NCBI GenBank assembly: GCA_003224055.1
Contig: QHYE01000065.1
Coordinates: 1 to 32,223 of the forward strand
Length of the DNA stretch: 32,223 nt
Source: Acidobacteriota bacterium
GTDB taxonomy: Bacteria > Acidobacteriota > Terriglobia > Acidiferrales > UBA7541
Direction of reading: 5' to 3'
Every line of letters begins with the position of its first letter. Position 1 is the stretch's first letter. A program made the position numbers and the translations under genes. The notes beneath the pieces were generated by a model. The model was not told the origin of the DNA. It saw nothing but the letters and a program-made list of their open reading frames with translations, and made no database searches. Shown here in pieces: positions 7,150-31,210 of this stretch.

Positions 7150-9510
7150 TCAGTACCGCAGCAGGTAACTCACCTTGACAAAGAATAGACGGCTGGTGGA
7201 ATTGTTTGGTGGTCCCTGTACGGTGATGGGCACCGGCGCTCCCGCACGCAGGTTCAGATCGCTATATCCATTGTTGTAGCCAAGATAGACGGCCGTCCCC
7301 GGATGCAGCAGATATGTCAGGAGCACGTCGGTGGTGAATTGCTTCGTCGGCGCAAAAGGCCCGTTCACGTCATCCGAACCGCCAAGGCTCCTTTGCAGAT
7401 CAAAAAGCTGTGTGTTGGCGATCGTCCCGTTGTAATCCAGGATCAGCCGCAAGGAAAGTTCCTTCGTGAACTGATAATTGAATTTCGTGCGGTTCAGGTA
7501 GTTGTTGAAGATGCTGTGCCCAGGCGAAAACGGCGGTGGCACCGAGCCATCACGCGTTCCCAGTCGATAGTAAATCAGCGTTTCATCCAATCGTAGCCGC
7601 GACGAGGGCCGCAGCGTAAATCCGAAATTCACGCGCTGCACGTTTCCCAGGAACGGCGGTACTCCCGGCGGCGAGAAGAAATTCTCGCCAGTTCCCCGGG
7701 CGTAACGAGCCGATAAGGAGATCCATTTGTAGGGCTGTGTCGCAAGGAAAAGGGACGTACTGTGCTTCCGGAACTCAAAATTGCCCAAGCGTTCGTAAGC
7801 CTCTCCTCGATTGATGCTGAAGGTTGTTTGTTTTCGCAGGTCCACCTGGAATCCTAAACCCGCCCCCCAGTCCTGCAGAACGCCGTTGTGATTCCAGTCC
7901 ACCGTTTCGCTGACGGTGGGCCCAAAATCGATGACCTTTCCAGTGTTCGGCCGCCAGAAATACGCTGCGAAAGCGTTGTTCTGGCGGATATCGATGCGGT
8001 TGACGAATCCGAGTTCGGTGCAGAAATTGGGCGAGAAATCGTTGTAGTTGGTGGTGAACACAAAATGGCGGCCGCTGTACGACGCGTCCGCCCACAGCGC
8101 ATTCCCTTGCTGCGATCCGAATCCTTGCGCGTTTTGCTGAAACGACAGGCAATTTTGTCCCGGCTGAGCATTCTGCCGCGTCCAACTGTGCACCCCTTGA
8201 ACATCGGCGACCCAGTTCTTGGAGAATTTCAGCCGCGCATCGATTGAGGCCACGCGGTTGCTGGTGTCGGCAAAATCACGGCTCGAGAAAAAGCCGCCAA
8301 TGTAGGACTGATTGCCGAACTCGCGTGTCACACGTACCACGCCGTCCACCGCTCGCGTATCGTACGGACCGCTTGTAAATCCCTGGCCCGGCTGCCGGTC
8401 GTCAATGGCCAGTGCGCCCAGCGTCCATTTCCCCAGCTTTCCCGTCATGCGACTACCGAACTGCGGGTGGGCAATCTGGCGCGAGAAAAAAAGATCAATC
8501 GGGGTGGCGAAAAACCCTGCGTTCTCGATGAAGAAAGGGCGCTTCTCTGGGAAAAAAACCGCAAACCGCTGATTGACTGTGACCTGCGGGTCGTCGGATT
8601 CCACCTGGCTGAAGTCCGGATTCAGCGTGAAGTCAAACGAGAGCGAATCCTTCACCACGAATTTGGCATCGAGGCCGGCGCGGTGTTCAAATTTGTCCAA
8701 GAACATAGGCGGTGCGCCGCCACCCGGTTGATTCAAAAAATGATCGCTGGCAAGAAGGCCGTACGGAATGAGCTGAATGTTGCGCCCCGGCGACACGTTT
8801 TCAATCCCGCCGACCGGCGCGAACTGCTGGGTCAGCCCTTCCACCCGCTGCGTCACGTAGGGCCAGTAGTCGTACTCGCTCTTGCGCAGAATCGTGCGAT
8901 ACAGCGCCACCCCCCAGGTTTGTTCAGGACCGTGCGAGAAACGCAGGCTCTTGAACGGAATGGAGAAGAAAACAACATAGCCATCCTTTGTCACGCGGCC
9001 GGAACTACCCCATAACGTGTCGAAGCTGAGATCGTAGCCCTGGCCTTCGGTGTAGATCGCATCGGTCTGCACTCCCAGCGGATTCGAGAAAAAGAAATAC
9101 GCGCGGTGAAAATCCCGGAAGGTATCGAGCAGAACACCCACACCGTCGTCCTGATCGGATCCTTCGCGCCGGGAAAGATGCGCGCGCACGGCGCCGCTTT
9201 CATCCTGGCAAACGAACACCACATAGAGATTCTTGTCGTCGTAGGAAAGGTAGGCCGTCGTTGGTTCGGTGGCCGGTGCGCCGTCGCCGGGCGAGTTCTG
9301 CCGGAAATCGGTCACCGTAAGTTCCGCCTCGCGCGGCTGATTTTCAAGGAAGTCTTCGAGCTTTGGGGCCCGGTGAACGCGCGGAATCCTGGAAAGTGGG
9401 ATCTTCGCCGTGTCCGGGGCGGGGCGTAGCGGTACCTGCGCGGAAACTCCCGTTGCCGCCGCGAGCACCAGCGCAATTCCAAGAAGAGTCGTCCGGATGA
9501 GAGGTCCCAT
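7150..9510 (-). CDS. DUF5916 family outer-membrane protein with N-terminal CBM9-like domain
   Basis: The 786-residue product starts with a signal peptide ending near residue 25 (GVSA-Q). About residues 40-230 resemble a carbohydrate-binding family 9-like beta sandwich ([44 protein letters not shown]). The remainder follows the DUF5916 pattern, including [16 protein letters not shown] and SRQIAHP, and continues as alternating aromatic strands that end in Phe-X-Lys-Val-Ser-Tyr-Leu-Leu-Arg-Tyr, an outer-membrane beta-barrel type of C-terminus. Such proteins are common in Acidobacteriota and Bacteroidota; their substrate is not known. No clear Shine-Dalgarno site precedes ATG 9510. fabH follows 89 bases downstream on the same strand, possibly as a separate unit. 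Confidence 0.85.
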
Positions 9511-9623
9511 TAGGGAATACTTTGTATAGCTTCTATTGTTTCTTCACGCAAACGCTAAATGGTACAGATTCTGTAAAGTATCGCGCGAGTACTGCGAGGG
9601 TTGAAGGACTCCCGCCTCGTTCA

Positions 9624-10037
9624 TCAAGAACCGACAGACTGGATTTCATATCGCCATGAGACGGCTGCCGTTTTCTTGAGCATGGCCGCCACCGAGCAAT
9701 ACTTATCCTCGCTGAGCTGAATGGCGTGCTTCACCGCCTTGTCCTCGAGCTGCCCGCGGAGGAGGTACACAATTTCCAGCTTCTTCCAGACGGTAGGAGG
9801 CTCCGCGGCACGCTCCCCCGAGCAAATCACTTCCAGCGACTCCAGCTCTTGCCGCTTCTTCCCGAGGATGCTCATGATGTCCGTTGCCGTGCAGGCCCCC
9901 AAGGCCATTAACACCAGTTCCATCGGTCCCGGAGCGGTGTTCGAGTCGCGACCCGAATCAATGCTAATCGCGTGCCCAGAAGGGCTGGTCGCGACAAATT
10001 GTTCCTCACCGATCCACTCTACGGATGCAGTCTGCAT
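9624..10037 (-). CDS. OsmC family peroxide-detoxifying protein
   Basis: The product (137 aa) has both reactive cysteines of the OsmC/Ohr family: Cys49 in LGACTATD and Cys114 in DKYCSVAAML. It also has the expected GPMELVLMAL helix before the first Cys. OsmC proteins reduce organic and inorganic hydroperoxides using these two thiols and work as homodimers in the cytoplasm. The shorter OsmC-type helix pattern (CTATDIMSILGKKR) suggests the OsmC/YhfA side of the family rather than Ohr. The frame is open for 42 codons further upstream, but the family N-terminus begins at ATG 10037 (MQTASVEW), preceded by a G-rich stretch. It is divergent from the small secreted protein gene. Confidence 0.9.
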   Translation of the reverse strand: MQTASVEWIGEEQFVATSPSGHAISIDSGRDSNTAPGPMELVLMALGACTATDIMSILGKKRQELESLEVICSGERAAEPPTVWKKLEIVYLLRGQLEDKAVKHAIQLSEDKYCSVAAMLKKTAAVSWRYEIQSVGS

Positions 10038-10224
10038 GGCGCCCCCTGCAGAAAGAATAGCAGGCGGAAGCGAGAGGAACGATCTGGATATGGAAAGCTG
10101 CACAAGCCGGCACGCAGCGGTGTGTTGGCCCCTCGCAGGAATCGCCGTTCGTCTTAGCCCCACGACCCGCGGCAGATTTCAGCGTATGATTCGGAGCGCA
10201 GCAGAGAAACTACGGGGGGCGGCG

Positions 10225-10710
10225 ATGCAACTGAAAAGGGCAGTAATGCGGTGGAACGGGGTGCTCGTTTTTGCGCTGGCAGCGGCGTTGTTGACGGGGC
10301 ACGGACTATTGAGTGCGAAGCAGAACGCGATGGCTGCTGAAGCGAAAGAACAACCCTATGTGATCGAATATTACTACAAAGCGAAATGGGGCCACGCCGA
10401 CGAGTTCCTCGCACTCTTCAAGAAAAACCACTATCCCGTGCTCAAGAAGGAAATGGAACTGGGGCGCATGTTGAAAGTAACCATGGCCGCTCCGCGCTAT
10501 CACGCCACCGAAGACGGGCGCTGGGATTTCCGCGTGACCATCGTTTACAAGAACGCCGCAACCGCCAACGACAATTTTGACAGCGCTGCTCTGATCAAAC
10601 AGCTCTATCCCGACCAGGACACTTACAAAAAAGAAGAGCAGCGGCGCTTCGAAATCCTCGATTCGCACTCGGATGTGCCCATCAAGGACATGGATTTGGA
10701 CGGGAAGTAG
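10225..10710 (+). CDS. Secreted hypothetical protein, possibly dimeric alpha/beta-barrel fold
   Basis: The 161-residue product has a signal peptide (MQLKRAVMRWNGVLVFALAA, cleavage probably near residue 38-40). The mature part, starting YVIEYYYKAKWGHADEFLALFKK, has a strand-helix pattern resembling NIPSNAP/ABM-like ferredoxin-fold proteins (strand, then a helix bearing Lys/His, then a strand VTMAAPRYH). This fold assignment is inference; I cannot name a family. ATG 10225 is favoured over ATG 10186 because GGGGGG lies five bases before it. It converges with the c-di-GMP enzyme, and a hairpin overlaps the junction. The resemblance to the NIPSNAP protein at 30.8-31.2 kb is loose. Confidence 0.65.
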   Translation: MQLKRAVMRWNGVLVFALAAALLTGHGLLSAKQNAMAAEAKEQPYVIEYYYKAKWGHADEFLALFKKNHYPVLKKEMELGRMLKVTMAAPRYHATEDGRWDFRVTIVYKNAATANDNFDSAALIKQLYPDQDTYKKEEQRRFEILDSHSDVPIKDMDLDGK

Positions 10711-10716
10711 CGCTTA

Positions 10717-10737
10717 TCCTGAACCGGCTCTTCAGGA
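10717..10737. terminator. Inverted repeat at a convergent gene junction
   Basis: TCCTGAA (10717-10723) and TTCAGGA (10731-10737) form a perfect 7-bp stem with a 7-base loop between the ends of two convergent genes. It overlaps the stop codon of the c-di-GMP enzyme gene. No T-run follows on either strand, so it is at best a weak or Rho-assisted terminator. Confidence 0.3.
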
Positions 10738-13700
10738 ATTGCGCGGGCCGGTGGTGGTCGCCACTTCGATGACCGGGTTGGGCAGCGTGCGCAGCGTTCG
10801 AACGAAAATTGCGACGATCGCCCCATCGAACTGCGCGTTGGCACATCGTTCCAGTTCCGCCAGGGCGTCGCCGGCCTTGCGCGCCTTCTTGTAAGTGCGG
10901 TCGCTGGTGATGGTGTCGTAGGCGTCGGCGATGGCGATGATACGCGCTCCGAGCGGGATTTTTTCGCCCGCAAGGGCTTCGGGGTAACCCGAACCGTCAA
11001 AATACTCGTGGTGATGCAGGACCATCTCGCGAATCCGCGCCAGCGGTGTGAGCGGGTCAAGAATCTTGGCGCCAAACTTCACGTGGGACTTCATCGTTTC
11101 CCATTCGTCCGGATTCAACGGGCCGCTCTTGTTCAAGATGTTTTCCGGAATGCCCACCTTTCCGATATCGTGCAGCACCCCGCCCAGCCGGATTTCCTCG
11201 ACTTCCGCGTCGGACATTTCCATGGCCTCGGCGATGAGCGCGGCGTAGGCGGATACTTTCTGCGAGTGCCCTTGCGTGTAGTGGTCTTTCGCGTCGATCG
11301 CGAAGGCCAGCGACGTCACGGTATCCAGCACCGCCTGCGGCAAGGCCTGGGGTCCTTGCACCGGGGTCGTGGAGGGCTTGCCGCCTCCGATTTCGGTGGC
11401 CGCGAGCGATTCCGTGAACTGCGTCAGGCGCTGGTATATCTCCTCGAAAGCCTCCGGACCGGTGGAGAAGAGTCTCTTTAGCGTCACCCCCAGATAGGCT
11501 TCGAGCACGTCGCGCTTCCACTTTTTCGCTTCGTTGGGGTCGAAATGATCCGCCGTCGAAACCGCGTTGCCGCCCTGATGCTTCGAAAGATACATCGAAG
11601 CGTCGGCTACCTGAATCAGCTCCTGCGGCGAGGAGCCGTGCAACGGGTAGCACGCGATGCCGAAACTCGCGCTTATGTTTTTTTCGCGGAGCAGCGGATC
11701 CGCGGACACCCAGCCTCGCAGTTTGCTGGCCAGCTGCCTTGCGTGCTCCATGTTGGTTTCCGGCATCAGGATCACGAACTCGTCCCCGCCATAGCGCGCC
11801 ACGACATCCGAGCGGCGGCAATTCGTTTCCAGAATGTGCCCCACGCGCTGCAAGACCAGGTCGCCTTCCAGATGCCCGTAAAAATCGTTGACGAACTTGA
11901 ATCGATCGAGGTCCATCAGCACCAACGCAAATGCCCGGCCCGCGCGCGTCGAGCGCTTCCACTCGGCCGACAGCGCTTCCATGAAGAACCGGTGCGTCTT
12001 CACGCCGGTGAGTCCATCGGTGATGGCCTGCTCCTGGGCTTTCTGGAACGAAAGTGAATTGTGACGTGCTCCTGCGATCAGATCGGCCAGCGTCCGCAGA
12101 AGCAGTATTTCCTCCTCGGAGAAATCGATGGGCGTTGCAGATTCGACATACAAGATGCCGTGGAGCTGCTCCGCGTAGAAAACAGGCAGCGCGATCGCCG
12201 CCACCGAATCGGGCAGGACAGGCTTAAGCGCGCTGTCCGCGTGAGACGCTGCGTGATATGCCGCCAAGTGGCCATTGCGGGCGACTTGTCCGATCAGGCC
12301 CGCACCCAGCGGGATGCGCTGCCCGAGCGCACCGCGGCGCTTGCCAGCTTCCGCCTGGATGACAATCTCGCGCGTCGAATACTCGAGCACGCCGATGCCG
12401 ATGTGATCGTAGGTCAGGCCGTCTTCCAGTTGCTCCGTGATTTTCGCGAGCATCTCATCGGGATTCAGAGTGGCGATGGCGTTGCGCGAGATGGTGTTCA
12501 GCAGCGAGAGGTGCCGTGCTTTCGTGCGCTCTTCCTGGAAAAGTCGCGCGTTCTCGATAGCGATACTCGCTTCGCTCGCCAGAACCCGCAGCAGCTCGAG
12601 ATGGCCTTCGTCAAAGGTCCGTTCGTGGTTGGAGAAGACGGCCATCGCTCCGATGGCGTGGTCGTAGGCCACCAGCGGGACGCCGCAGAAGCATCCTTTG
12701 TCGCGCATCGGCTCAACGCCGAGTTTTTTCACCTCGGTCACGAAATTGTCGCGGATCAGAACAGGCTGCCGCGTGCGGATGATGTATTCGGTGAGGTGAT
12801 TCCCAGCCGGCCGCGTGCGCTTGGGCACACGCGAGCCGTCGATCATTTCCAGATCGAAACGCATTTCGTCGCGCAGCGGATCGAATTCGGCAATGTAGAA
12901 ATTCTCCACGTCGAACAGGCGGCGGAGTTCTTCCCACACTTTGCGCATCAAGTCTTCTTTGTTGAGCGTCGAGCTCAGCGCGCGCCCGATTTCGTTGAGC
13001 ACGTGGAGTTCTTCGGAGCGCCGCGAAGTTTGCTGGATCAAGTAGCTGTTCTCGACGGCCATGCCGATCTGATGTCCCAGCGCTAGGAGCAGCCGCAACT
13101 CCGCGGGAGTGAATCGCCGGCTGTCTTGCGTGCCGAGGAGCAACACGCCAAAAGCTTGCTCCTTCGCTTGAAGGCTGATGGCCACCACGCTGCGAAGCCC
13201 CTGGGCCAGAGCCAGGTCGCGGAATCGCCGGATGGATTGTTCTTTTTCCAGCGCGGAAAGCGAATCATCGCGCAGGTCGCGGAAACCCAGCAGCCCGCCG
13301 AGGCGCGACACCAAATTCACCAGGTAGTCGTCCAGACCTTCGTTCTGCGCAGCGCGGCAAAAATCATCGCTGAGTCCCACGGCAACGACGGATGTCGGTC
13401 CTTGCGGATCCCCGTGATGCAGAAAGAGCGCCCCGGCCGGGAGCCGGACCACGCCGAGCACGCGGTCCAGCGCCTGCGATAGCATGCGCTGGATTTCGCC
13501 GCCGACGAGACTGGAAGTCGCCAGGTTCAGATTCGAAAGCGCCAGCATGTTGCGCTCGATGCGCCGCTTTTCTTCTTCGTACAGCGCCATCACCATCAGC
13601 ATCGCCACGAAGGCGCAAGGCGCCGCCGCAACCACGTTGATGCTCGCACCTTGCAGCTCCGGCGAGCCGTTCAGGAAATGGAGGGAGACCCACAGAACTC

Positions 13701-23272: not shown

Positions 23273-23833
23273 CTAACGCCTGGACTCACCGTTGCGGAAA
23301 ATCTCCGCATGCGCCGGTTTGGAGACGGAAGTTGAGGCCGCGACGTTGACGACTGCGTCCAGAGTCAATGTGACCGGCGGCAGGCAGATTTCGCTGCTGC
23401 AGGCCTGATAGCGAAGTTTCAGCGGGATGTGCTGTTCGCCGAGCGGGGCATTGGCGAGGGCGGTAACGGGCATGAATAGCGTCACCGTGTCCTGGTAGAC
23501 GTTCAGCGGTATTTTGCTGAAGGCAAATTTTTCGAGTTTGCCTTTGGGATAGGCGACTTCGCCGGCTTTGAAGCCGGCGGGGAGTTCGGACTTGAGGTCC
23601 GTGGCGATGAGATAGTCTTCGGATTTTTCGCGAGCGTTGACGTGGAAGCCGGGACGAATTTTCATCACGACGGCGATTTGGAAGGAACTGCCGCGCGCGG
23701 CGGGATCGAGCGAGGCGTAAATTTCCGGTTTGACGACATCGCGTCCGGAAGGAATCTGCGAAGTGACCACATGCGGCAGGGCTGCACATAGCCCCAGGAG
23801 CGTGACGAAAAAAATTGTTTTGCTAGATATCAC
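23273..23833 (-). CDS. Secreted single-domain protein related to the DsbD N-terminal (alpha) domain
   Basis: The 186-residue product has a signal peptide (~1-25). The rest matches the periplasmic N-terminal domain of the thiol:disulfide interchange protein DsbD. The redox pair is Cys145 and Cys150 in YQACSSEICLPP, equivalent to the Cys pair that hands electrons from DsbD to periplasmic partners such as DsbC. The membrane and thioredoxin domains of DsbD are absent, so it must work with a separate electron donor or has another role. It starts at GTG 23833, whose bases overlap the stop of the frataxin gene (GTGA), so the two are translated as a coupled pair. The last ~20 residues are a basic tail. 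Confidence 0.8.
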   Translation of the reverse strand: MISSKTIFFVTLLGLCAALPHVVTSQIPSGRDVVKPEIYASLDPAARGSSFQIAVVMKIRPGFHVNAREKSEDYLIATDLKSELPAGFKAGEVAYPKGKLEKFAFSKIPLNVYQDTVTLFMPVTALANAPLGEQHIPLKLRYQACSSEICLPPVTLTLDAVVNVAASTSVSKPAHAEIFRNGESRR

Positions 23834-24162
23834 AGGGTCACCTGGGTGCCGAGCTGTTGGGAGACGACGCGGCCCATGACGGCGTAGAGATCTTCGCCGG
23901 TTTTTTCATGGACGAAAGTGTTGCGCGGCTCGTTCCACCCGAGCTTGAAGCTGGTGGAAAGCGCGGAGATCCAGATTTCGCGGACGGGGGTGTTGGGGGA
24001 GATCACGAATTTGGCCTCCTCGGGCTCCTCGAAAATGACTTCGAGCTTTCCGCTTTCGCCTTCGACGTCAAAGCCGTGTTCATCGCCCAGGACCAGGAGG
24101 CGCTTCTTGAGATCTTCGAAAGCGGCGTCCGCTTTACGCTGAAAGTCTTTTTCATCGAGCAT
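23830..24162 (-). CDS. cyaY: Frataxin-like iron-sulfur cluster assembly protein CyaY
   Basis: The 110-residue product has the length and pattern of bacterial frataxin (CyaY), which binds iron and tunes cysteine desulfurase activity in the ISC pathway. Features include an acidic N-terminal helix (DEKDFQRKADAAFEDLKKRL), an acidic strand (DVEGESGKLEVIFEEPEEAKFVIS), EIWISALSTSFKLGWNE, and a C-terminal helix (DLYAVMGRVVSQQLG). The frame runs upstream to 24483, but that part is the composition of the noncoding repeat region; ATG 24162 matches the family start. No isc or suf genes are in the window. Outside proteobacteria CyaY is less common, so this is slightly unusual for an acidobacterium. Confidence 0.82.
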   Translation of the reverse strand: MLDEKDFQRKADAAFEDLKKRLLVLGDEHGFDVEGESGKLEVIFEEPEEAKFVISPNTPVREIWISALSTSFKLGWNEPRNTFVHEKTGEDLYAVMGRVVSQQLGTQVTL

Positions 24163-24374
24163 GGATTTAGGGTACCTGAAGAGAGTGAGTCGTGGGTAGT
24201 GGGAGAGGAGCCGAAGCAAAGAGGTAAGGAGGTAATGAGATAACGAATGAGGCGGGGGAGGAGTAAGTTCCGGAATGGGAATTGTTGGCATACACCCGGC
24301 AGTTTTCATATGAGTGGCAAGCAAAGGACTTACAGGATACGGAACTTGGAAGAGTGCGCAACGAATAGAAAACA

Positions 24375-24524
24375 GGGGATTTGCAAATGCACTTTTTGCG
24401 CGAAAAAGTGAGCAGAGAAGCAAGAATGGAGGGCGAGAGATACGCAGGGCCCCTACACCCCCAGGCATTTGTAAGGATGTCAAACGAAAGGGGTTGCGGG
24501 AGGGGGCATTTGTAAATGACGGGG
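24375..24524. repeat. Cluster of three GCATTTG(C/T)AA repeat copies
   Basis: GCATTTGTAAGGATG at 24465-24479, GCATTTGTAAATGACGGGG at 24506-24524, and, inverted, GCATTTGCAAATCCCC at 24375-24390. Two copies share ATTTG(C/T)AAAT and the G/C-run flank. They look like members of a short interspersed palindromic element family. Confidence 0.5.
24390..24410. repeat. Perfect 8-bp hairpin
   Basis: CACTTTTT, loop GCGCG, AAAAAGTG. It adjoins the inverted GCATTTG copy. The A/T-rich stem makes an RNA terminator unlikely; a cruciform or protein site is possible. Confidence 0.6.
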
Positions 24525-24537
24525 ATTAAAAGAGTTG

Positions 24538-24560
24538 CGGTGACGGGTTTTTCATCACCG
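24538..24560. repeat. 6-bp hairpin with T-rich loop
   Basis: CGGTGA, an 11-base loop with five T, then TCACCG, immediately followed by TGACGG which repeats the first arm's flank. Function unknown. Confidence 0.45.
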
Positions 24561-24579
24561 TGACGGAATCGAATCGAGA

Positions 24580-24651
24580 CTGGGGAAGAATCCTTCCACT
24601 CGTCCGCCGCGGCGGGCTTGCTCAGGATGCGCATCCTTGGCCGGATGCGCA
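24580..24651. repeat. Palindromic intergenic element
   Basis: Two perfect 12-bp palindromes, CCGCCGCGGCGG (24604-24615) and GGATGCGCATCC (24625-24636), with a second GGATGCGCA copy at 24643-24651. The flank AATCCTTCCACTCG and GCTCAGGATG resembles a widespread intergenic repeat often seen in environmental Acidobacteriota assemblies; that resemblance is from memory. Confidence 0.5.
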
Positions 24652-24916
24652 ATGCGGATGGCAGGGGCAAGCGCATACGGAATGGTCGCATGGGAAGTAC
24701 CGACTGTCAACTACTAACTACTTAGTGATTCGAATGGAATGTCGTATCCGGGACACAGCAGGGGTGCAAGTTGGAGGATGGAAAGGACTTGCGGGAGGGA
24801 TGAGAGTTGAGAAAATCTTGGAGATCTGGTGACGGGTCAAAAGCCGAGCCTCGACCGGAGCAGGCGCTACCTAAGAGTGCGCGAACGTTCTCCATTGGTT
24901 ACGTCTGGGCTACGCG

Positions 24917-24944
24917 TTTAACTTCACTGGAAAGCATCTATATC
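24917..24944 (+). promoter_or_regulatory. Weak candidate promoter of the nuclease-helicase gene
   Basis: TTTAAC, a 16-base spacer, and TATATC, 49 bases before the start codon. Three and four consensus matches only. Confidence 0.25.
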
Positions 24945-24992
24945 GTGGATAGGCTAATGTCCGGCGAAGAATCAGCTTAAACTTTTCATCCT

Positions 24993-27900
24993 ATGAAGAT
25001 TGTTGGGCAGCAAATTCGACTCGCGGGGTCAGACCTGAGCAACCACCTCGCCTGCCGTCATTTGACCACGCTGGAGTTGCAGGTGGTGCGAGGCGAGCGG
25101 GCCGCACCGGATTGGGCTGACCCGGACCTTGCGATCATTCTGGAACGTGGTGACAGGCACGAGAAAGACTATCTCGCACATCTGGCTGCGCAGGGACTCA
25201 CAGTCGAGAATCTGGGGCATATCGATCACAAAGAAGAAGCGCGGCTGCTGGCGGAGACGCTAGCGCTGATGGATCGCGGCGCGCAAGCGATCGCGCAAGG
25301 GGCGCTGAGCGACGGGGGATGGTTTGGGCGGCCGGATGTGCTGCGTCGCGTTGCAACGCCGAGCAAGCGATGGAAGTGGTCCTACGAAGTGGTGGATACG
25401 AAGCTGGCGCGAGAGACGAAGGCGACGACGATCCTGCAACTGTCGCTATATTCGGAATTACTGGCGAAGATTCAGGGGACGGTGCCGGAGTTTTTGTGGG
25501 TGGTGCCGCCGGGCGAAGGGTTTGCGGGAGAGAAATATCGCGTCTCGGAGTATGCGGCGTACTCCCGGTTTGTGATGAAGCGATTGCGTGGGGCCGTGGG
25601 CGAGGGTGCGAGCAAGGAAACTTATCCAGAGCCGGTGGAGCACTGCAATGTGTGCCGGTGGTTCAAGGAGTGCGACGCGAGGCGGCGAGCGGACGATCAT
25701 TTGTCGCTGGTGGCGGGAATCCGGAGGCAACAGCGGGATCAGTTTGAAGAGTGGAATGCGGAAACGATGGCCAAGCTGGCGGCGCTGCCGATTCCGCTGC
25801 GAGAACGGCCGAAGCACGGGTCGAAGGCAGGATACGAGAAGGTCCAGAAGCAGGCGCGGGTGCAGGTGGAGGGACGGACAGAAAAGAAGCTGAAGCATGA
25901 ACCGATCCTGCCCGTGGCGGAAGGAATGGGATTTTGCCGGCTGCCGGAGCCTTCAGTGGGCGACATGTTTGTGGATCTGGAAGGCGATCCGTTTGTGGGA
26001 GAGAACGGGTTGCAGTATCTCTTTGGGTTTGCGGTGCTCGATGTGCGGGGAGAATTGAAATACGAAAAGCGATGGGCTTTGAATCGTGAGGAGGAGAAAA
26101 AGGGATTTGAATGGATGGTGGACGAAATCATGCAGCGGCGGGAAGCAAATCAGAAAATGCACGTGTATCACTTCGGCGGGTACGAGCCGGGAGCGTTGAA
26201 GCGATTGATGGGGATGTACGCGACGCGGGAAGACGAAATCGACCGGATGCTGCGAGCGGGCGTGCTGGTGGATTTGCATCAGGCGTTCAAGCAAGGAGTG
26301 CGGGCGAGCGTGGAAGAGTATTCGCTGAAAAAAGTGGAAGCGTTTTACGGATTCGAGCGGAAGACGCCGCTAGAAGCGTCGCGAGCGGCGATGCGATATG
26401 TGGAGCACCGGTTGGAATTGGGCTGGGGAGATGAGGAATTGCCGAAGCCGATTCGCGAGGCGATGGAAGGATACAACGCGGACGATTGCCTTTCGACGGC
26501 GAAGCTGCGGGATTGGCTGGAGGAGGAAAGGAAAAAGTTGGAGGAAGACGGAGCGAGCGTGCCACGATTCGCGGACAGGGATGAGGAGGCATCCGAAGAA
26601 CTAGATGAGAGGCAAAAGCGAGTTGCGGAGCTGACAGAAGAACTAACGACGGGAATGCCGGCGGACTCGAAGGAGCGAAGCAAAGAGCAGCAGGCGCAGT
26701 GGCTGTTGGCACAACTTTTGGATTGGCACAGGCGGGAGGACAAAGCGACTTACTGGGAGGGTTACAGGCTGGCGGAGCTCAACGATGAGGATTTGCTCGA
26801 AGACCGGGCGGGACTGGCGGGGCTGAGGTTATTGGAGCAGGTGCTCGTTGAACGAAAGATTCCTGTGGATCGTTATACATTCGAGAAGCAGGAGACGGAA
26901 GCACGCGTGGCGAAGGACCTGTATTGCAAGCGCGAAAAGTTCGGAAGCGTGGTGGCAATCGACCCGGTGAAACGCACAATTGATGTTAAGAAGACGAGAA
27001 AGACAGCCGAATTGCATCCGACTGCGGTGTATGTGTGGGAGCGGCCCTTTAATGTAAAGGAACATTCAGAGGCGCTCTTCCGGATCGGCGAGTGGGTGGC
27101 GGCGAATGGTATCGATACCGCCGGAAGATATCGTGCGGGGCGAGATTTGTTGCTGCGGAAGCGGCCGCGGCTCGCGAGAGGCGAGGTGCTGGAACCGCAC
27201 ACGGGAGAAGAGCCCAAGAGCACAGTGTGCCGGATTGCCTCGGCTCTTAAGGACTCCGTGTTTGCGATCCAGGGGCCTCCGGGTGCGGGGAAGACATTCA
27301 CCGGGGCGCGGATGATCTGCGAATTGGTGAAGGACGGAAAGAAGATCGGAATTACGGCGCTAAGCCACAAGGTGATCCGGAAGCTCCTGGAAGAGGTGAC
27401 GGATGCAGCGAAGGAACAGGAGCAGAGTGGCGTGCGGTGCATGCAGCGGTCGGATACGGAAGAGCCGAGCGAGGACATTGCCATGGCGAGGAGGAACGAT
27501 GAGGCATGGGCGGCCCTAGAGTCCGGCAAAGCAAACGTGTCGGGAGGAACGTCGTGGCTGTGGTCGCCGGAAGCGGCTTTTGAAGCAGTGGATATGTTGT
27601 TCATTGATGAGGCGGGACAGATGGGACTGGCGGATGTGCTGGCGGTGTCGCAAGCGGCGAAGAGCCTTGTCCTGATTGGCGATCCGCAACAATTGGAGCG
27701 GCCTCTGAAGGGAAGCCATCCGGACGGCGCCGAGAAATCGGCACTGGAGCATTTGCTGGGCGAGCGCAAAACGATTTCGGGGGACATAGGGTTTTTGCTG
27801 CCGGAGACGTGGCGATTGCACCCGAGGGTATGCGAGTTTACATCGGGCTTTTTTTATGAAGGGCGGCTAGCGTCGCGGGAATTTTTGCGGAATCGAGTGC

Positions 27901-28424
27901 TGGAAGGACACGCATGGCTGAACGGAGCGGGATTGTGGATTGTGCCGGTCGCGCATGAGGGGAGCCGGAACTCGAGCGCGGAGGAAGTGGAAGTGGTGGC
28001 CCGGATTGTGGAGGGATTGCTGAAGCCGGAAGTGAAATGGTTCTACGGGGCGGGGAATAGCCGGCGACTGAAGGAAGAAGACATTTTGATCGTGGCGCCG
28101 TATAACGCGCAGGTATCGGATCTGTGCGCGGGGCTGCCGAAGATGCGGATTGGGACGGTGGACAAGTTTCAGGGTCAAGAAGCACCCGTGGTGATTTATT
28201 CGCTGACAACGTCGTCGCCGGAAGAAGCGCCGCGTGGGATGGAGTTTTTGTACAGCTTGAACCGTCTGAACGTGGCGACCTCGAGGGCGATGACGACGGT
28301 AGTTTTGGTGGGCAGCCCGAAGCTCTTCGAACCAGAATGTAGAACGCCGCGGCAGATGCAACTGGCGAATGCGTTTTGCGGTTACCTGGAAATGGCTGTC
28401 ACACGCAATCCCGCCTCGATTTAG
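24993..28424 (+). CDS. TM0106-type RecB-like nuclease fused to RNase H-like and SF1 helicase domains
   Basis: The 1143-residue protein combines three nucleic-acid activities. Residues ~1-230 are a PD-(D/E)XK (RecB/Cas4-like) nuclease with Asp115, Glu132 and Asp135-x-Lys137, plus four cysteines (Cys21, Cys218, Cys221, Cys227) in the layout of an iron-sulfur nuclease. Residues ~320-510 are a DEDD-type RNase H-like domain (Asp328-x-Glu330; Tyr494 and Asp498), as in YprB-like proteins. Residues ~640-1135 are a superfamily 1 helicase of the Upf1/Dna2 type: Walker A GPPGAGKT at 761-768, Walker B Asp872-Glu873, GDPQQL at 896-901, DKFQGQE at 1057-1063 and ATSRA near 1095-1099. I base the family name on the known TM0106 RecB-like family; its role (repair or defence) is not established. 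It stands alone, between a repeat-rich gap and a terminator. Confidence 0.88.
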   Translation: MKIVGQQIRLAGSDLSNHLACRHLTTLELQVVRGERAAPDWADPDLAIILERGDRHEKDYLAHLAAQGLTVENLGHIDHKEEARLLAETLALMDRGAQAIAQGALSDGGWFGRPDVLRRVATPSKRWKWSYEVVDTKLARETKATTILQLSLYSELLAKIQGTVPEFLWVVPPGEGFAGEKYRVSEYAAYSRFVMKRLRGAVGEGASKETYPEPVEHCNVCRWFKECDARRRADDHLSLVAGIRRQQRDQFEEWNAETMAKLAALPIPLRERPKHGSKAGYEKVQKQARVQVEGRTEKKLKHEPILPVAEGMGFCRLPEPSVGDMFVDLEGDPFVGENGLQYLFGFAVLDVRGELKYEKRWALNREEEKKGFEWMVDEIMQRREANQKMHVYHFGGYEPGALKRLMGMYATREDEIDRMLRAGVLVDLHQAFKQGVRASVEEYSLKKVEAFYGFERKTPLEASRAAMRYVEHRLELGWGDEELPKPIREAMEGYNADDCLSTAKLRDWLEEERKKLEEDGASVPRFADRDEEASEELDERQKRVAELTEELTTGMPADSKERSKEQQAQWLLAQLLDWHRREDKATYWEGYRLAELNDEDLLEDRAGLAGLRLLEQVLVERKIPVDRYTFEKQETEARVAKDLYCKREKFGSVVAIDPVKRTIDVKKTRKTAELHPTAVYVWERPFNVKEHSEALFRIGEWVAANGIDTAGRYRAGRDLLLRKRPRLARGEVLEPHTGEEPKSTVCRIASALKDSVFAIQGPPGAGKTFTGARMICELVKDGKKIGITALSHKVIRKLLEEVTDAAKEQEQSGVRCMQRSDTEEPSEDIAMARRNDEAWAALESGKANVSGGTSWLWSPEAAFEAVDMLFIDEAGQMGLADVLAVSQAAKSLVLIGDPQQLERPLKGSHPDGAEKSALEHLLGERKTISGDIGFLLPETWRLHPRVCEFTSGFFYEGRLASREFLRNRVLEGHAWLNGAGLWIVPVAHEGSRNSSAEEVEVVARIVEGLLKPEVKWFYGAGNSRRLKEEDILIVAPYNAQVSDLCAGLPKMRIGTVDKFQGQEAPVVIYSLTTSSPEEAPRGMEFLYSLNRLNVATSRAMTTVVLVGSPKLFEPECRTPRQMQLANAFCGYLEMAVTRNPASI

Positions 28425-28452
28425 GTGATAACTTTACCCTCTCAAAACAAGA

Positions 28453-28472
28453 GGGCGGACCGAAGTCCGCCC
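28453..28472. terminator. Bidirectional hairpin terminator between convergent genes
   Basis: GGGCGGAC, loop CGAA, GTCCGCCC: a perfect 8-bp GC stem. On the minus strand the loop reads UUCG closed by C-G, the very stable tetraloop, followed by TCTTGTTTT; on the plus strand CTTTGAG follows. Flanking CTCAAA and TTTGAG can extend the pairing. It sits 28 bases after the helicase stop and serves minus-strand transcripts from the BNR gene too. Confidence 0.8.
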
Positions 28473-28510
28473 CTTTGAGAAAGTTGCAAGAGCTGGTACA
28501 GCCATGTGGC

Positions 28511-28594
28511 TTAGAGCTGGATCTCCCAGACGCCGCGACCGTAGGTGGCAATGCGGAGGAAGCTGCCATCGGGCGGCATGTAGAGGTCATCCAC
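28511..28594 (-). pseudogene. C-terminal remnant of a BNR/sialidase-like secreted protein
   Basis: A 27-residue stretch ending in a TAA at 28511 reads DLYMPPDGSFLRIATYGRGVWEIQL when divided around its Gly-Ser; the ATYGRGVWE end is the characteristic C-terminus of BNR/exo-alpha-sialidase-like beta-propellers. It lies 43 bases after the stop of the intact BNR gene and in another frame, and has no start or body of its own. Probably the tail of a deleted or recombined paralogue. Confidence 0.6.
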
Positions 28595-28637
28595 AGAACC
28601 TGCAGATTCGTCAGAAGCTAAGATCAGAAGCGTGGGA

Positions 28638-30545
28638 CTAGAAGCTGTCCGAACGAACGACAACATCCTGCTGGTGGCTCGCGGTGCCGGCAACCCACTG
28701 AACGCCGCCGAACCACACGAAGTTCTGCACGTTATTGCTATCGGTCCAAAAGGCGTGGAAGACGTCGTCGGCCCCCGCCGCGATGTCCGTATAATCGCCG
28801 AAGAACGTGCCGCGGAAGCCGTAACGAGTGTTGATGGGCTGGGTCGTTACGGTATTGGTCACGCCGCTGGTCAGGTCTCTCACCACATAGTCCAGGCGTG
28901 CATTGTTAATGAAGGGGCCGAGCGTCTTGCAGCTTGCGCCATTCAGGCTCGGCGCGCCGAACGCCGCACAAGTTTGCCAGGGTGAGACCACGTCGGCAGC
29001 GTAGGCCGACATGTAGACGCGTCCCGTGGGTGAGACTGATACCGCGGGGAACAGCGTGTCCACTCGCCGAGCGGCGGGCGCGTTCAGCGTGCTTCCGTCC
29101 GGCTGAGTCACTGGATAACCGATGGCCGTGCGCGTGGAAGCATCGACGGACGGCAGGACCAGCGCGGGGGCGCTCCACGTTGCGCCGCCGTCGGTAGACT
29201 TGCTATAGAGCGACGCCGCATGGCATCCGGTGTTTGTGCGCGTCGGGCACAGGCCCCCGCTGTTACTCATCATCGAGGACCAGGCGACATACAGGTCCCC
29301 GTTGGGCGCAACGCCAGCGGCCGGAAAGCTGTTGACGCGGAATGACGTATTCGCCGCCGGGATGATGTCCACTAGCGGAGACACCGCCACCGGCTCGCTC
29401 CAGTTCCTACCGCCATCAGTCGATTTGACTACCCAAATGCTGTCGAAAGTGGCGAGCCGAGTCGCCGCGTCCCAAAAGACATAGACGGTGCCATCCGGAC
29501 CGACCACCGGCCGCGAGCCCTGGCCATACAGGACGTTGCTGACGATGAGCTGCGGATCACTGAAGGTGCGCCCGCCGTCGCGCGACACTGCCACCGCAAT
29601 GGGCGACTGCACGTAATGACCGTTGTGCGGATTGAAAATAAACCGCGTCCAGGTCACATAGACGTTGTCGCGAAAGGGACTCGCGGCATGGGAATCCACG
29701 GCGATCCATTCCTTGTCATTGATTGTGGAAGGGGCCTTGGTTTGGTTGATGAACACCGGCGCCCCCCAAGTCAGGTTCCCGTTGCTGTCAAAGGTTCCTT
29801 TGTTCACAGCGACTGTGTTGGCTGGCGAGGTGCGGTCAAACCCCAGACCCGAATAATAAACGTTGCCACGGCTATCGAAGGCCACAGCGGGATCTCCACC
29901 GGCGTCGTACGGTCCTCCGGTCAAATGTTCAACTCCGGGAATCAATGTCCCCAAGCTTGTCCCGTCGAGTTTGGAAGCGCAGCACCAGGTCTTGCCGCCA
30001 TCGTTGGAGAAATACGTCCCCGAGTAGCCGTCGCCCACAGCACTGCACGGTATTGCCCCGATGCTGCAGTTCCAGGTGAGAGTTACGTAGTCGTTCGCAC
30101 CAGCAACGATGCGCATCGGCTTGTTGGGATCCACCGCAATGGCCGTCTCATTTTGGGGAGCTCCCGCCGTATCCTGGTTCACAGTCACGTCCGGCGCGAG
30201 GACACTTGTGCCGTCTAGCGGGCTGGACAAGATTTGGAAAGGAGTGACGGGAATTGAAGAGGGGCTGGAGATCAGGTCGCTCAGATCGGATTCCTGCTCG
30301 ATAAACGCGGAGAAGCGAATCTGCAAGCCAGCTGTGCCATTTACCGACGCCACCTTGCCAGCCAGAGTGGTGATGTCATAAGTGACCCCGGAGTTGTCCG
30401 TAGTGGTGGTCTTCTGGTCTGCGGCGGCCTGCGCGGTCTGTGATCCGACGGTTCCCGGCAGCGTCAACGCGGCGCCGGCTGCCACCAGCAAAAAAAGAAG
30501 AAGTGCGAGCTTGCGTGTTTTTACGCTGCTCGGAGAAGCATTCAT
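28638..30545 (-). CDS. Secreted BNR/Asp-box repeat (sialidase-like beta-propeller) protein
   Basis: The 635-residue product has a signal peptide (~10-40, LALLLFLLVAAGAALTLPG). It carries at least four Asp-box motifs of the S-x-D-G-G-x-T/N-W/F type, at roughly residues 182 (SNDGGKTW), 323 (SRDGGRTF), 376 (STDGGRNW) and 450 (STDGGATW), with repeated PAVAFDSRGNVYYSG and PDGTVYVFWDAAT type blades. This is a sialidase-like propeller fold. The catalytic Arg triad of true sialidases is not evident, so enzymatic activity is uncertain; binding or a structural extracellular role is as likely. GGGAGG lies five bases before ATG 30545, and a good promoter lies about 100 bases upstream. Confidence 0.85.
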   Translation of the reverse strand: MNASPSSVKTRKLALLLFLLVAAGAALTLPGTVGSQTAQAAADQKTTTTDNSGVTYDITTLAGKVASVNGTAGLQIRFSAFIEQESDLSDLISSPSSIPVTPFQILSSPLDGTSVLAPDVTVNQDTAGAPQNETAIAVDPNKPMRIVAGANDYVTLTWNCSIGAIPCSAVGDGYSGTYFSNDGGKTWCCASKLDGTSLGTLIPGVEHLTGGPYDAGGDPAVAFDSRGNVYYSGLGFDRTSPANTVAVNKGTFDSNGNLTWGAPVFINQTKAPSTINDKEWIAVDSHAASPFRDNVYVTWTRFIFNPHNGHYVQSPIAVAVSRDGGRTFSDPQLIVSNVLYGQGSRPVVGPDGTVYVFWDAATRLATFDSIWVVKSTDGGRNWSEPVAVSPLVDIIPAANTSFRVNSFPAAGVAPNGDLYVAWSSMMSNSGGLCPTRTNTGCHAASLYSKSTDGGATWSAPALVLPSVDASTRTAIGYPVTQPDGSTLNAPAARRVDTLFPAVSVSPTGRVYMSAYAADVVSPWQTCAAFGAPSLNGASCKTLGPFINNARLDYVVRDLTSGVTNTVTTQPINTRYGFRGTFFGDYTDIAAGADDVFHAFWTDSNNVQNFVWFGGVQWVAGTASHQQDVVVRSDSF

Positions 30546-30621
30546 GTAGACCTCCCGATGAAGGATTCAGCTTGCAGGAATGGAAGATGGCTGGACAAGC
30601 GTAGGACGCGGTCGTCCGAAT

Positions 30622-30654
30622 GGTTAGCCCACCCCGCAGCCGGGAATGCTAACC
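30622..30654. promoter_or_regulatory. Inverted repeat overlapping the BNR gene promoter
   Basis: GGTTAGC (30622-30628) and GCTAACC (30648-30654) form a perfect 7-bp inverted repeat 19 bases apart. The right arm overlaps the predicted -10 element and spacer of the promoter, and the interior contains a further CCCG/CGGG pairing. The position suits a repressor operator. Confidence 0.4.
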
Positions 30655-30674
30655 CTCTATTACTTCGCTGTCAA
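30646..30674 (-). promoter_or_regulatory. Candidate sigma-70 promoter of the BNR gene
   Basis: On the minus strand a perfect TTGACA (30674-30669), a 17-base spacer, then TAGCAT (30651-30646), four of six matches to TATAAT. It is about 100 bases upstream of the start codon. Confidence 0.6.
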
Positions 30675-30772
30675 TAAGAACCGGCAAATGGAGATTTAGT
30701 GGCTGTTTTACTTGAGCTAGAGAAAATGGAAATCTAAAAATCGGAATTCGATCAAAGAACAGAGCGTCATAG

Positions 30773-31210
30773 TTAGCGGAGCGGCGGGGAGAAGTCGGTC
30801 AAAACGAGATACGTGGAATCGATTTTCTCGACCAGCTTGCCGTTGGCTTCGGATTTATCGCGCACGCTCTGCCATTCGGGATCATCGCGGAAGGCCTGCC
30901 AGTTGGCGGCGGCGGCTTCCCGGCTGGGATGCGCGATGATGTAGATGAGAGTCTTGCTCTTCAGAGGTTCGTCGGTGGGCGTCCAGTAGGCTATGTTCTT
31001 GATTCCATGCTTTTCGAAGAGCTGCATGGTGTGCTCGCGAAAACGCCGCAGCAGGTCGTCCAGCTTGCCGTCGTAGGTGTGATAGACGCGGAGTTCGTAG
31101 ACGGTGGAGGTTGGTCCGGGGCCGGGCTTCTCTAGTTCCGAGGAGGCCCAAGCTGCGGCAGGGAGAAGTGCTGCTGCAGGAAGCGATTGAAGCAAGGTTC
31201 GTCTTTTCAT
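30773..31210 (-). CDS. Secreted NIPSNAP family protein
   Basis: The 145-residue product starts with KRRTLLQSLPAAALLPAAAWA, which looks like a signal peptide with a twin-arginine type motif, though a Sec signal is possible. The remainder matches the NIPSNAP domain of the dimeric alpha/beta-barrel fold: VYELRVYHTYDGKLDDLLRRF, KHGIKNIAYWTPTDEP, LIYIIAHPSREAAAANW and FRDDPEWQSV. The molecular function of bacterial NIPSNAP proteins is unknown. It is divergent from the DUF2235 gene across a 164-base gap. Confidence 0.88.
   Translation of the reverse strand: MKRRTLLQSLPAAALLPAAAWASSELEKPGPGPTSTVYELRVYHTYDGKLDDLLRRFREHTMQLFEKHGIKNIAYWTPTDEPLKSKTLIYIIAHPSREAAAANWQAFRDDPEWQSVRDKSEANGKLVEKIDSTYLVLTDFSPPLR

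Follow-up and report, generated by a model that had tools for sequence, protein, structure and literature searches.

What does a solitary gene do that appears to join two different nucleases to a helicase motor in a single chain? The question arises from contig QHYE01000065.1 of a soil Acidobacteriota bacterium (assembly GCA_003224055.1), of which we analysed positions 1-32,223, here called the window. An initial annotation, made from the letters of the window, had described in it a fusion of a nuclease, an RNase H-like domain and a superfamily 1 (SF1) helicase that could process DNA ends, R-loops or invading DNA. The observation is confirmed here, and the interpretation is partly supported. 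The gene belongs to a known family, and it is accessory and mobile: patchy in occurrence, changing in position and carried on plasmids. Its product has, in our judgement, an even chance of being an accessory enzyme that destroys DNA ends, most likely acting against phage, plasmid or other incoming DNA.

Domains, active sites and predicted fold

The initial annotation had named the TM0106 RecB-like family as an example of this layout, and membership in it was borne out: the NCBIfam model TIGR03491 matches residues 13-509 at 255.5 bits, exceeding its curated cut-off of 97.45. On the 1143-residue protein Pfam recognizes RNase_H_2 at residues 325-509 (3e-18) and, at 748-1109, AAA_11 (1.2e-11) and AAA_12 (2.6e-24). 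Searches by sequence found solved relatives for the helicase part only, mainly UPF1/NAM7, SMUBP-2, SEN1 and its relatives, and Dna2; a profile of the nuclease half returned no match in the PDB at E values up to 1.

Folds were compared on two predictions. The whole-protein AlphaFold model, for which 60 near-full-length homologues were used, had a mean predicted local distance difference test score (pLDDT) of 90.6 and a predicted template modelling score of 0.83; a second model of residues 1-530 alone reached a pLDDT of 93.7. In the second model, residues 4-236 match the Cas4 part of 7mi4 (Z 15.2 over 191 residues, 3.5 Å) and residues 321-528 match residues 135-343 of 1tgo (Z 14.8 over 179 residues, 3.2 Å). 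The latter match means that the middle domain is better named a polymerase-B-type exonuclease than just RNase H-like; since the nuclease-half profile had no PDB match, the link to polymerase B rests on this fold and on the account of the family given in PMC3985635. In the whole model the region ahead of the helicase core has helices between residues 535 and 603 and strands between 607 and 681, and residues 565-1143 match IGHMBP2 (4b3g) in VIA-align at Z 29.6 over 510 residues. The three segments named in the initial annotation thus hold up by both profile and fold. A Foldseek search of the PDB ranked three Dna2 entries first (about 1250 columns including gaps, E 3.2e-27 to 6.8e-25), followed by IGHMBP2 and UPF1.

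The active sites were followed through an alignment of 111 rows, the window protein and 110 homologues with fragments included, of which 101 rows are at least 1000 amino acids long; gaps were excluded from each count. Its homologues come from genome contigs (79), plasmids (8), one viral-collection contig and, for the rest, other genomes. In the first nuclease, D115 and K137 are unchanged in all 103 rows that have the residue, E132 varies (92 E, 9 D, 2 Q), D135 gives way to E in 2 rows and is D in the other 101, and H56 is H in 95 rows and F in 8. The cysteines C218, C221 and C227 are each kept in 105 of 106 rows, and C21 in 101 of 102. The initial annotation was right in the coordinates of the gene and in the residues it named (D115, E132, D135, K137); the four cysteines (C21, C218, C221, C227) and the helicase lysine K767 are likewise in their expected places, and the check it had proposed, alignment of the cysteines and both active sites across homologues, found them conserved and not missing. 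The four cysteines probably hold an iron-sulfur cluster. The sole exception is one homologue (L046, at 8411-11695 in genome G056) in which all four are gone while D115 and K137 are retained; their joint loss fits a single shared metal site. The L046 protein offers a natural test of the role of the cluster.

Exonucleases of the DEDD polymerase-B type carry the motifs D-x-E, D and Y-x3-D, the second motif usually being Asp. Here the first and third motifs are invariant, with D328 and E330 kept in 108 of 108 rows and Y494 and D498 in 110 of 110. The DEDD set of the initial annotation stands in those positions and needs amending in the second, which is an invariant Glu (E398, 109/109); D427 is D in 107 rows and N in 2. 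In the helicase, K767, D872, E873 and Q900 are each kept in 109 of 109 rows and D1057 and Q1060 in 107 of 108. Residue conservation across the 111 rows rules out a chance open reading frame (ORF), and a degraded or inactive nuclease is, as far as sequence tells, excluded by the conserved active sites.

How might such a protein work? The sections of PMC4716839 on this branch of helicases treat the Upf1-like subfamily, to which Dna2 is placed next, as a branch of SF1B that moves 5'-to-3', and describe a Dna2 strand that threads through the nuclease, where an iron-sulfur element holds the crossover loop. That account suggests a motor, a cutter of the threaded strand and a 3'-5' trimmer in the present protein. 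The UPF1/Dna2-type motor would load on single-stranded DNA at an end, move 5'-to-3' and open the duplex; the Cas4/AddB-like iron-sulfur nuclease would cut the threaded strand; and the polymerase-B-type exonuclease would trim 3' ends. With strand cutting and 3' trimming combined, one protein could remove both strands.

The substrate is presumably DNA. The N-terminal nuclease has its matches in Cas4 and Dna2, both of which cut DNA, and the middle domain in proofreading domains of DNA polymerases. These matches argue against an enzyme of RNA or RNA-DNA hybrids, in which the helicase would strip RNA and the exonuclease degrade phage or host transcripts or R-loops. We consider that alternative improbable; in its favour, UPF1, IGHMBP2 and SEN1, which have RNA-bound structures, are among the best matches of the helicase part, and UPF1-like helicases occur in the predicted RNA-targeting CoCoNuT defence systems, according to the portion of PMC11090510 that deals with them.

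Change of position and distribution

The window copy stands alone, as the initial annotation had noted. To its left lie PALP/CBS, methyltransferase/MTHFR, GGDEF/HD and efflux genes, then gltX, a DsbD_N-domain gene and cyaY; to its right are BNR-repeat and NIPSNAP genes. No CRISPR or AddAB gene was found among the window neighbours scanned, and a promoter scan gave none, against 1.4 expected.

The left flank belongs to the site and the gene does not. Of 19 genus genomes examined, 18 have the order gltX - DsbD_N - cyaY, a few of them with some kilobases separating gltX from the DsbD_N gene. By tblastn at E values up to 1e-3, no copy of the nuclease-helicase gene was detected in 20 gltX-site stretches from 19 relatives, some of the stretches being cut off where the contig stops. 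Similarity to the window at the DNA level breaks off between 24,163 and 24,241 in all 12 relatives compared. At one of these loci (L172 in genome G014) it ends at 24,179 and restarts at 30,774 with about 150 bp between, an empty site, and the G014 genome has no match to the gene. Among 13 genus loci of the gene, only 2 of 78 pairs have a common neighbour within 5 kb, against 130 of 171 pairs among 19 gltX loci; a few wider clusters are common to genus loci of the gene. The window itself has neighbours in common with none of 12 gene loci and with 12 of 18 gltX loci. Position change, the empty G014 site and the lack of copies at gltX sites rule out a core repair gene at a fixed site.

The variable segment also holds the BNR-repeat gene (Table 1), present in 3 of 36 genus genomes, the window's own included. 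The two genes lie on different contigs in G019, and G010 has the BNR gene alone. We take its product to be a passenger or neighbour in the segment, with no sign of partnership.

Table 1. Features of the window around the nuclease-helicase gene
Feature	Residues	Coordinates	Strand	Site residues	Basis or remark
Nuclease-helicase gene, TM0106-family RecB-like nuclease and UPF1-like helicase		24993..28424	+		1143 amino acids, uninterrupted ORF
Cas4/AddB-type PD-(D/E)XK nuclease with four-cysteine putative iron-sulfur site	1-236	24993..25700	+	C21, C218, C221, C227; D115, E132, D135, K137, Q149, Y153	Fold, conservation
Linker between nuclease domains, mostly helical	237-320	25701..25952	+		Secondary structure of models; no separate family
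DEDD-type 3'-5' exonuclease-like domain, family-B polymerase proofreading relative	321-528	25953..26576	+	D328, E330, E398, D427, Y494, D498	RNase_H_2, fold, conservation
Probable helical stalk and small beta-barrel as in UPF1/IGHMBP2/Dna2	535-735	26595..27197	+		Inferred from aligned range
SF1 helicase core	740-1135	27210..28397	+	Walker K767, DE 872-873, Q900, R941, R1098	AAA_12, AAA_11, IGHMBP2 fold match, conservation
Ancestral left flank of the site: gltX - DsbD_N-domain gene - cyaY (frataxin)		21743..24179			Gene order in genus
Variable segment: nuclease-helicase gene and BNR-repeat gene		24180..30773			Absent at G014 site
BNR/sialidase-like repeat protein		28638..30545	-		BNR_2 2.5e-9

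The longest ORF for cyaY spans 23830-24483, with the frataxin domain covering residues 109-215, and probably has a spurious N-terminal extension. Given that placement of the domain and the end of similarity near 24,180, the nuclease gene is preceded by a gap of about 0.8 kb. The initial annotation had called this gap palindrome-dense, a description that was weakly borne out: we counted 5 short perfect inverted repeats in it, where stretches of the same length average 1.8 (standard deviation 1.8) and 8 of 79 of them are as high. Scans of the gap gave no tRNA and no Rfam family at the gathering score.

The gene was matched in 34 of 61 genomes searched, its own included. Of the 36 genus genomes, own included, 22 gave a strong match (E 1e-60 or better), in one case spanning just 147 residues. 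A second fusion lineage, about 43-46% identical, accounts for the match in three of the 22 (G003, G027 and G029, about 44-46%); two other genomes (G011, G017) hold both lineages. Across the phylum, the family cut-off is exceeded in 14 of 119 genomes sampled (own included), four of them in frames of 464-545 amino acids that have room for the nuclease half only. A scan of genome contigs with two helicase patterns, by which relatives may have only the helicase in common, found at least 523 stretches encoding a relative; the best 80 were kept and are mostly near full length. On plasmids, 129 records match and 57 cover at least 80% of the protein, which those records label merely 'putative nuclease'. 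Phage records matched in just 3 of 50,697 cases and by the helicase part only, an IMG/VR scan that reaches only close relatives gave a single contig (L022), whose copy is 43% identical across query residues 152-1133, and no PHROG was found for the nuclease half; together these rule out a typical phage gene.

A FastTree tree of 100 rows, bearing 12 phylum labels, groups partly by phylum. Its 71 labelled rows need 19 phylum changes, where the minimum is 11 and the mean after shuffling is 40.2, which suggests, and does not prove, gene transfer between phyla. Two near-identical copies (L077, L078) carry labels of different families, a Flavobacteriaceae metagenome-assembled genome and Cloacibacterium; this may reflect either a recent transfer or a naming matter.

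Neighbours of homologues and the weighing of roles

Homologues elsewhere often lie beside defence genes. Shango, a system defined in PMC10250203 whose three genes carry TerB, ATPase and helicase domains, adjoins the gene in three genomes of two phyla. PADLOC established complete SngA-SngB-SngC sets in two of these: in Bradyrhizobium (L055, 3993-9974; 5e-88, 1.3e-171 and 4e-249, respectively) immediately before the gene, and in Mucilaginibacter (L064, 13433-18976; 1.5e-28, 1.2e-159 and 9e-210) immediately after it. In Erythrobacter (L056, 6526-10001), SngB and SngC homologues precede the gene, making two loci with Shango genes before it and one with them after.

Of the 57 plasmid regions we inspected 12, judging them by product names except for the Ensifer plasmid (L023), where the genes immediately upstream encode a helicase resembling DrmD (3e-103) and a protein resembling TmtA (6.5e-51). 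Clear defence-type genes occur in half of the 12: besides L023, there are ubiquitin-like operons near the gene at two loci (L028, L029), a SIR2 gene with one for an ATP-binding protein (L030), TIR, restriction endonuclease and CBASS phospholipase genes (L187), and Abi and HEPN genes (L188). Four further regions (L024, L025, L026, L027) give weaker hints, for example a HEPN, toxin-antitoxin or HNH gene or a restriction gene farther off, and two (L186, L189) are without defence-type genes.

Could the protein then be an accessory part of other systems, such as a fourth gene of some Shango operons, inactive by itself? The full Shango sets at two loci, the SngB and SngC homologues at a third, and the Ensifer copy immediately downstream of the DrmD-like and TmtA-like genes would suit such a role. 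We think it quite improbable, as no neighbour family occurs at more than 6 of 106 loci and the window copy is solitary.

A controlled test of defence enrichment used 35 of 43 genomes, hand-picked for contig room. At each locus the four nearest ORFs of at least 120 amino acids (longest-ORF rule) were compared with four ORFs elsewhere on the same contig, and PADLOC families, not proteins, were counted at E values up to 1e-15; PADLOC reports families, 25 or fewer at a time, so protein counts are lower bounds. The loci fell into two batches of 22 and 13, divided by list order and not by any property. In batch 1, the 88 neighbours matched 151 PADLOC families and the 88 controls 3, the neighbour matches coming by label from at least 11 distinct proteins. 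In batch 2 there were 16 families in 52 neighbours, including type I restriction, type II methylase, JetD and PD-T4-1, against 26 in 52 controls, which included PD-T4-6, mad6 and C3a189 (most matching two proteins each), WYL, MkoA and PglW; we judge these control matches to be generic kinases, WYL regulators and helicase models. The formal outcome is enrichment in batch 1 and none in batch 2. At 16 genus loci, window included, the 64 neighbours matched 29 families, a count with no matched control; among these are a phospholipase effector, E2, viperin, SoFic and ZorA/ZorB, of which the ZorA/ZorB matches may be generic proteins of flagellar-motor type.

Several results weigh against a defence role in the form proposed here. 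Batch 2 was not enriched. The window holds no defence island and its neighbours are housekeeping genes. No conserved partner emerged from the 106 loci. The plasmid copy L186 is flanked by genes for an SOS-response peptidase, AlkB, DinB and an error-prone polymerase, and the L026 copy has SbcCD-like repair genes immediately downstream. Finally, the nuclease half in the predicted model is not seated on the helicase in the manner of Dna2: VIA-align aligns 670 residues of Dna2 (5eaw) with model residues 9-1143 at a root-mean-square deviation (rmsd) of 27 Å in the predicted placement, and we read this as domains that agree with Dna2 singly but, in the model, sit in a different arrangement. The suggestion of the initial annotation that the protein acts on invading DNA thus gains from the frequent defence neighbours of homologues and from batch 1, and loses from batch 2 and the surroundings of the window copy.

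The SOS/translesion and SbcCD-like neighbours fit repair, and the main rival is indeed an accessory DNA-repair enzyme, induced by damage, that would resect ends or process flaps in the way of Dna2 or AddAB and have no dedicated anti-phage role. The closest whole-length fold is Dna2, an enzyme of repair and replication, divergent WYL regulators adjoin four plasmid copies, and the same lack of defence genes in the window and of enrichment in batch 2 speaks for it. Set against this are the patchiness, plasmid carriage and position change, which are unusual for core repair, and the several copies embedded in defence operons. The same genome moreover has a separate 991-residue open frame with a PDDEXK_1 (RecB/AddB-type) domain, and the nuclease-helicase gene is therefore not its only enzyme of this type. 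On balance we hold such an accessory repair role to be somewhat unlikely.

The WYL regulators were seen in 4 of the 12 plasmid regions (L026, L028, L186, L187). A neighbour cluster common to L104, L111, L112 and L114 looks WYL-like by eye, without a family search.

Destruction of incoming DNA ends remains the reading we prefer. A bolder version of it, which we put forward tentatively as a possibility, is that the gene is a one-gene, position-hopping bacterial counterpart of Dna2 with two nucleases of opposite end preference, acting as a stand-alone anti-phage or anti-plasmid shredder and also as a degradation module shared by unrelated defence operons, Shango among them.

Comparison with known systems

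The layout is not new, because PMC3985635 already describes, in its treatment of COG2251, a DUF83 PD-(D/E)XK-like domain joined to the polymerase-B-related PF13482, often with a tandem AAA pair. That 2014 account groups COG2251/PF13482 with the polymerase-B exonucleases and predicts 3'-5' exonuclease activity; neighbourhood, mobility and a defence role are not treated in its passages on the family. TIGR03491 and COG2251 are presumably one family, judging by their common layout, and the TIGR03491 model spans the nuclease half only, unlike the whole 1143-residue protein. The family is widespread, yet a full-text search of open-licence papers found no functional study of TM0106, TIGR03491 or PF13482 proteins.

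Two classes of enzyme resemble single domains. The Cas4/AddB nucleases share the fold, the catalytic residues and the one-plus-three cysteine pattern, and differ in that the domain is here joined to an exonuclease and a helicase. The proofreading domains of family-B polymerases share the fold of the middle domain and its third motif; here there is no polymerase, and Glu398 replaces Asp in the second motif.

Among defence systems, Mokosh comes nearest by sequence. The MkoA model matches the UPF1-like helicase segment at 3.5e-44, but its best stretch (residues 838-1121) and that of MkoC (932-1126) cover helicase only, leaving both nuclease domains outside; with no whole-length match to either, membership in Mokosh is ruled out. 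Shango is a physical neighbour at three loci, but the protein is itself none of SngA, SngB and SngC, and membership is ruled out since no Sng model was among the 13 PADLOC families matched at E values up to 1. The PADLOC copy used has no model specific to the nuclease-helicase protein. If the defence reading is true, the gene would add a single-gene system in which one motor carries both a Cas4-like and a proofreading-type nuclease.

The closest overall likeness is to Dna2, for which PMC4716839, where it sets out the enzyme's architecture, gives an iron-sulfur nuclease of AddB-like type and, after it in the same polypeptide, a stalk, a beta-barrel and a UPF1-like SF1B helicase. Three differences set the present protein apart. 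The N-terminal oligonucleotide/oligosaccharide-binding domain of Dna2 is absent, the nuclease fold here beginning at residue 4 and the alignment with Dna2 at Dna2 residue 125; an extra polymerase-B-type exonuclease lies between nuclease and helicase; and the predicted domain placement departs, as the rmsd given above indicates. With these differences, the protein offers a simple bacterial relative in which to study the coupling of nuclease and helicase in Dna2-type enzymes.

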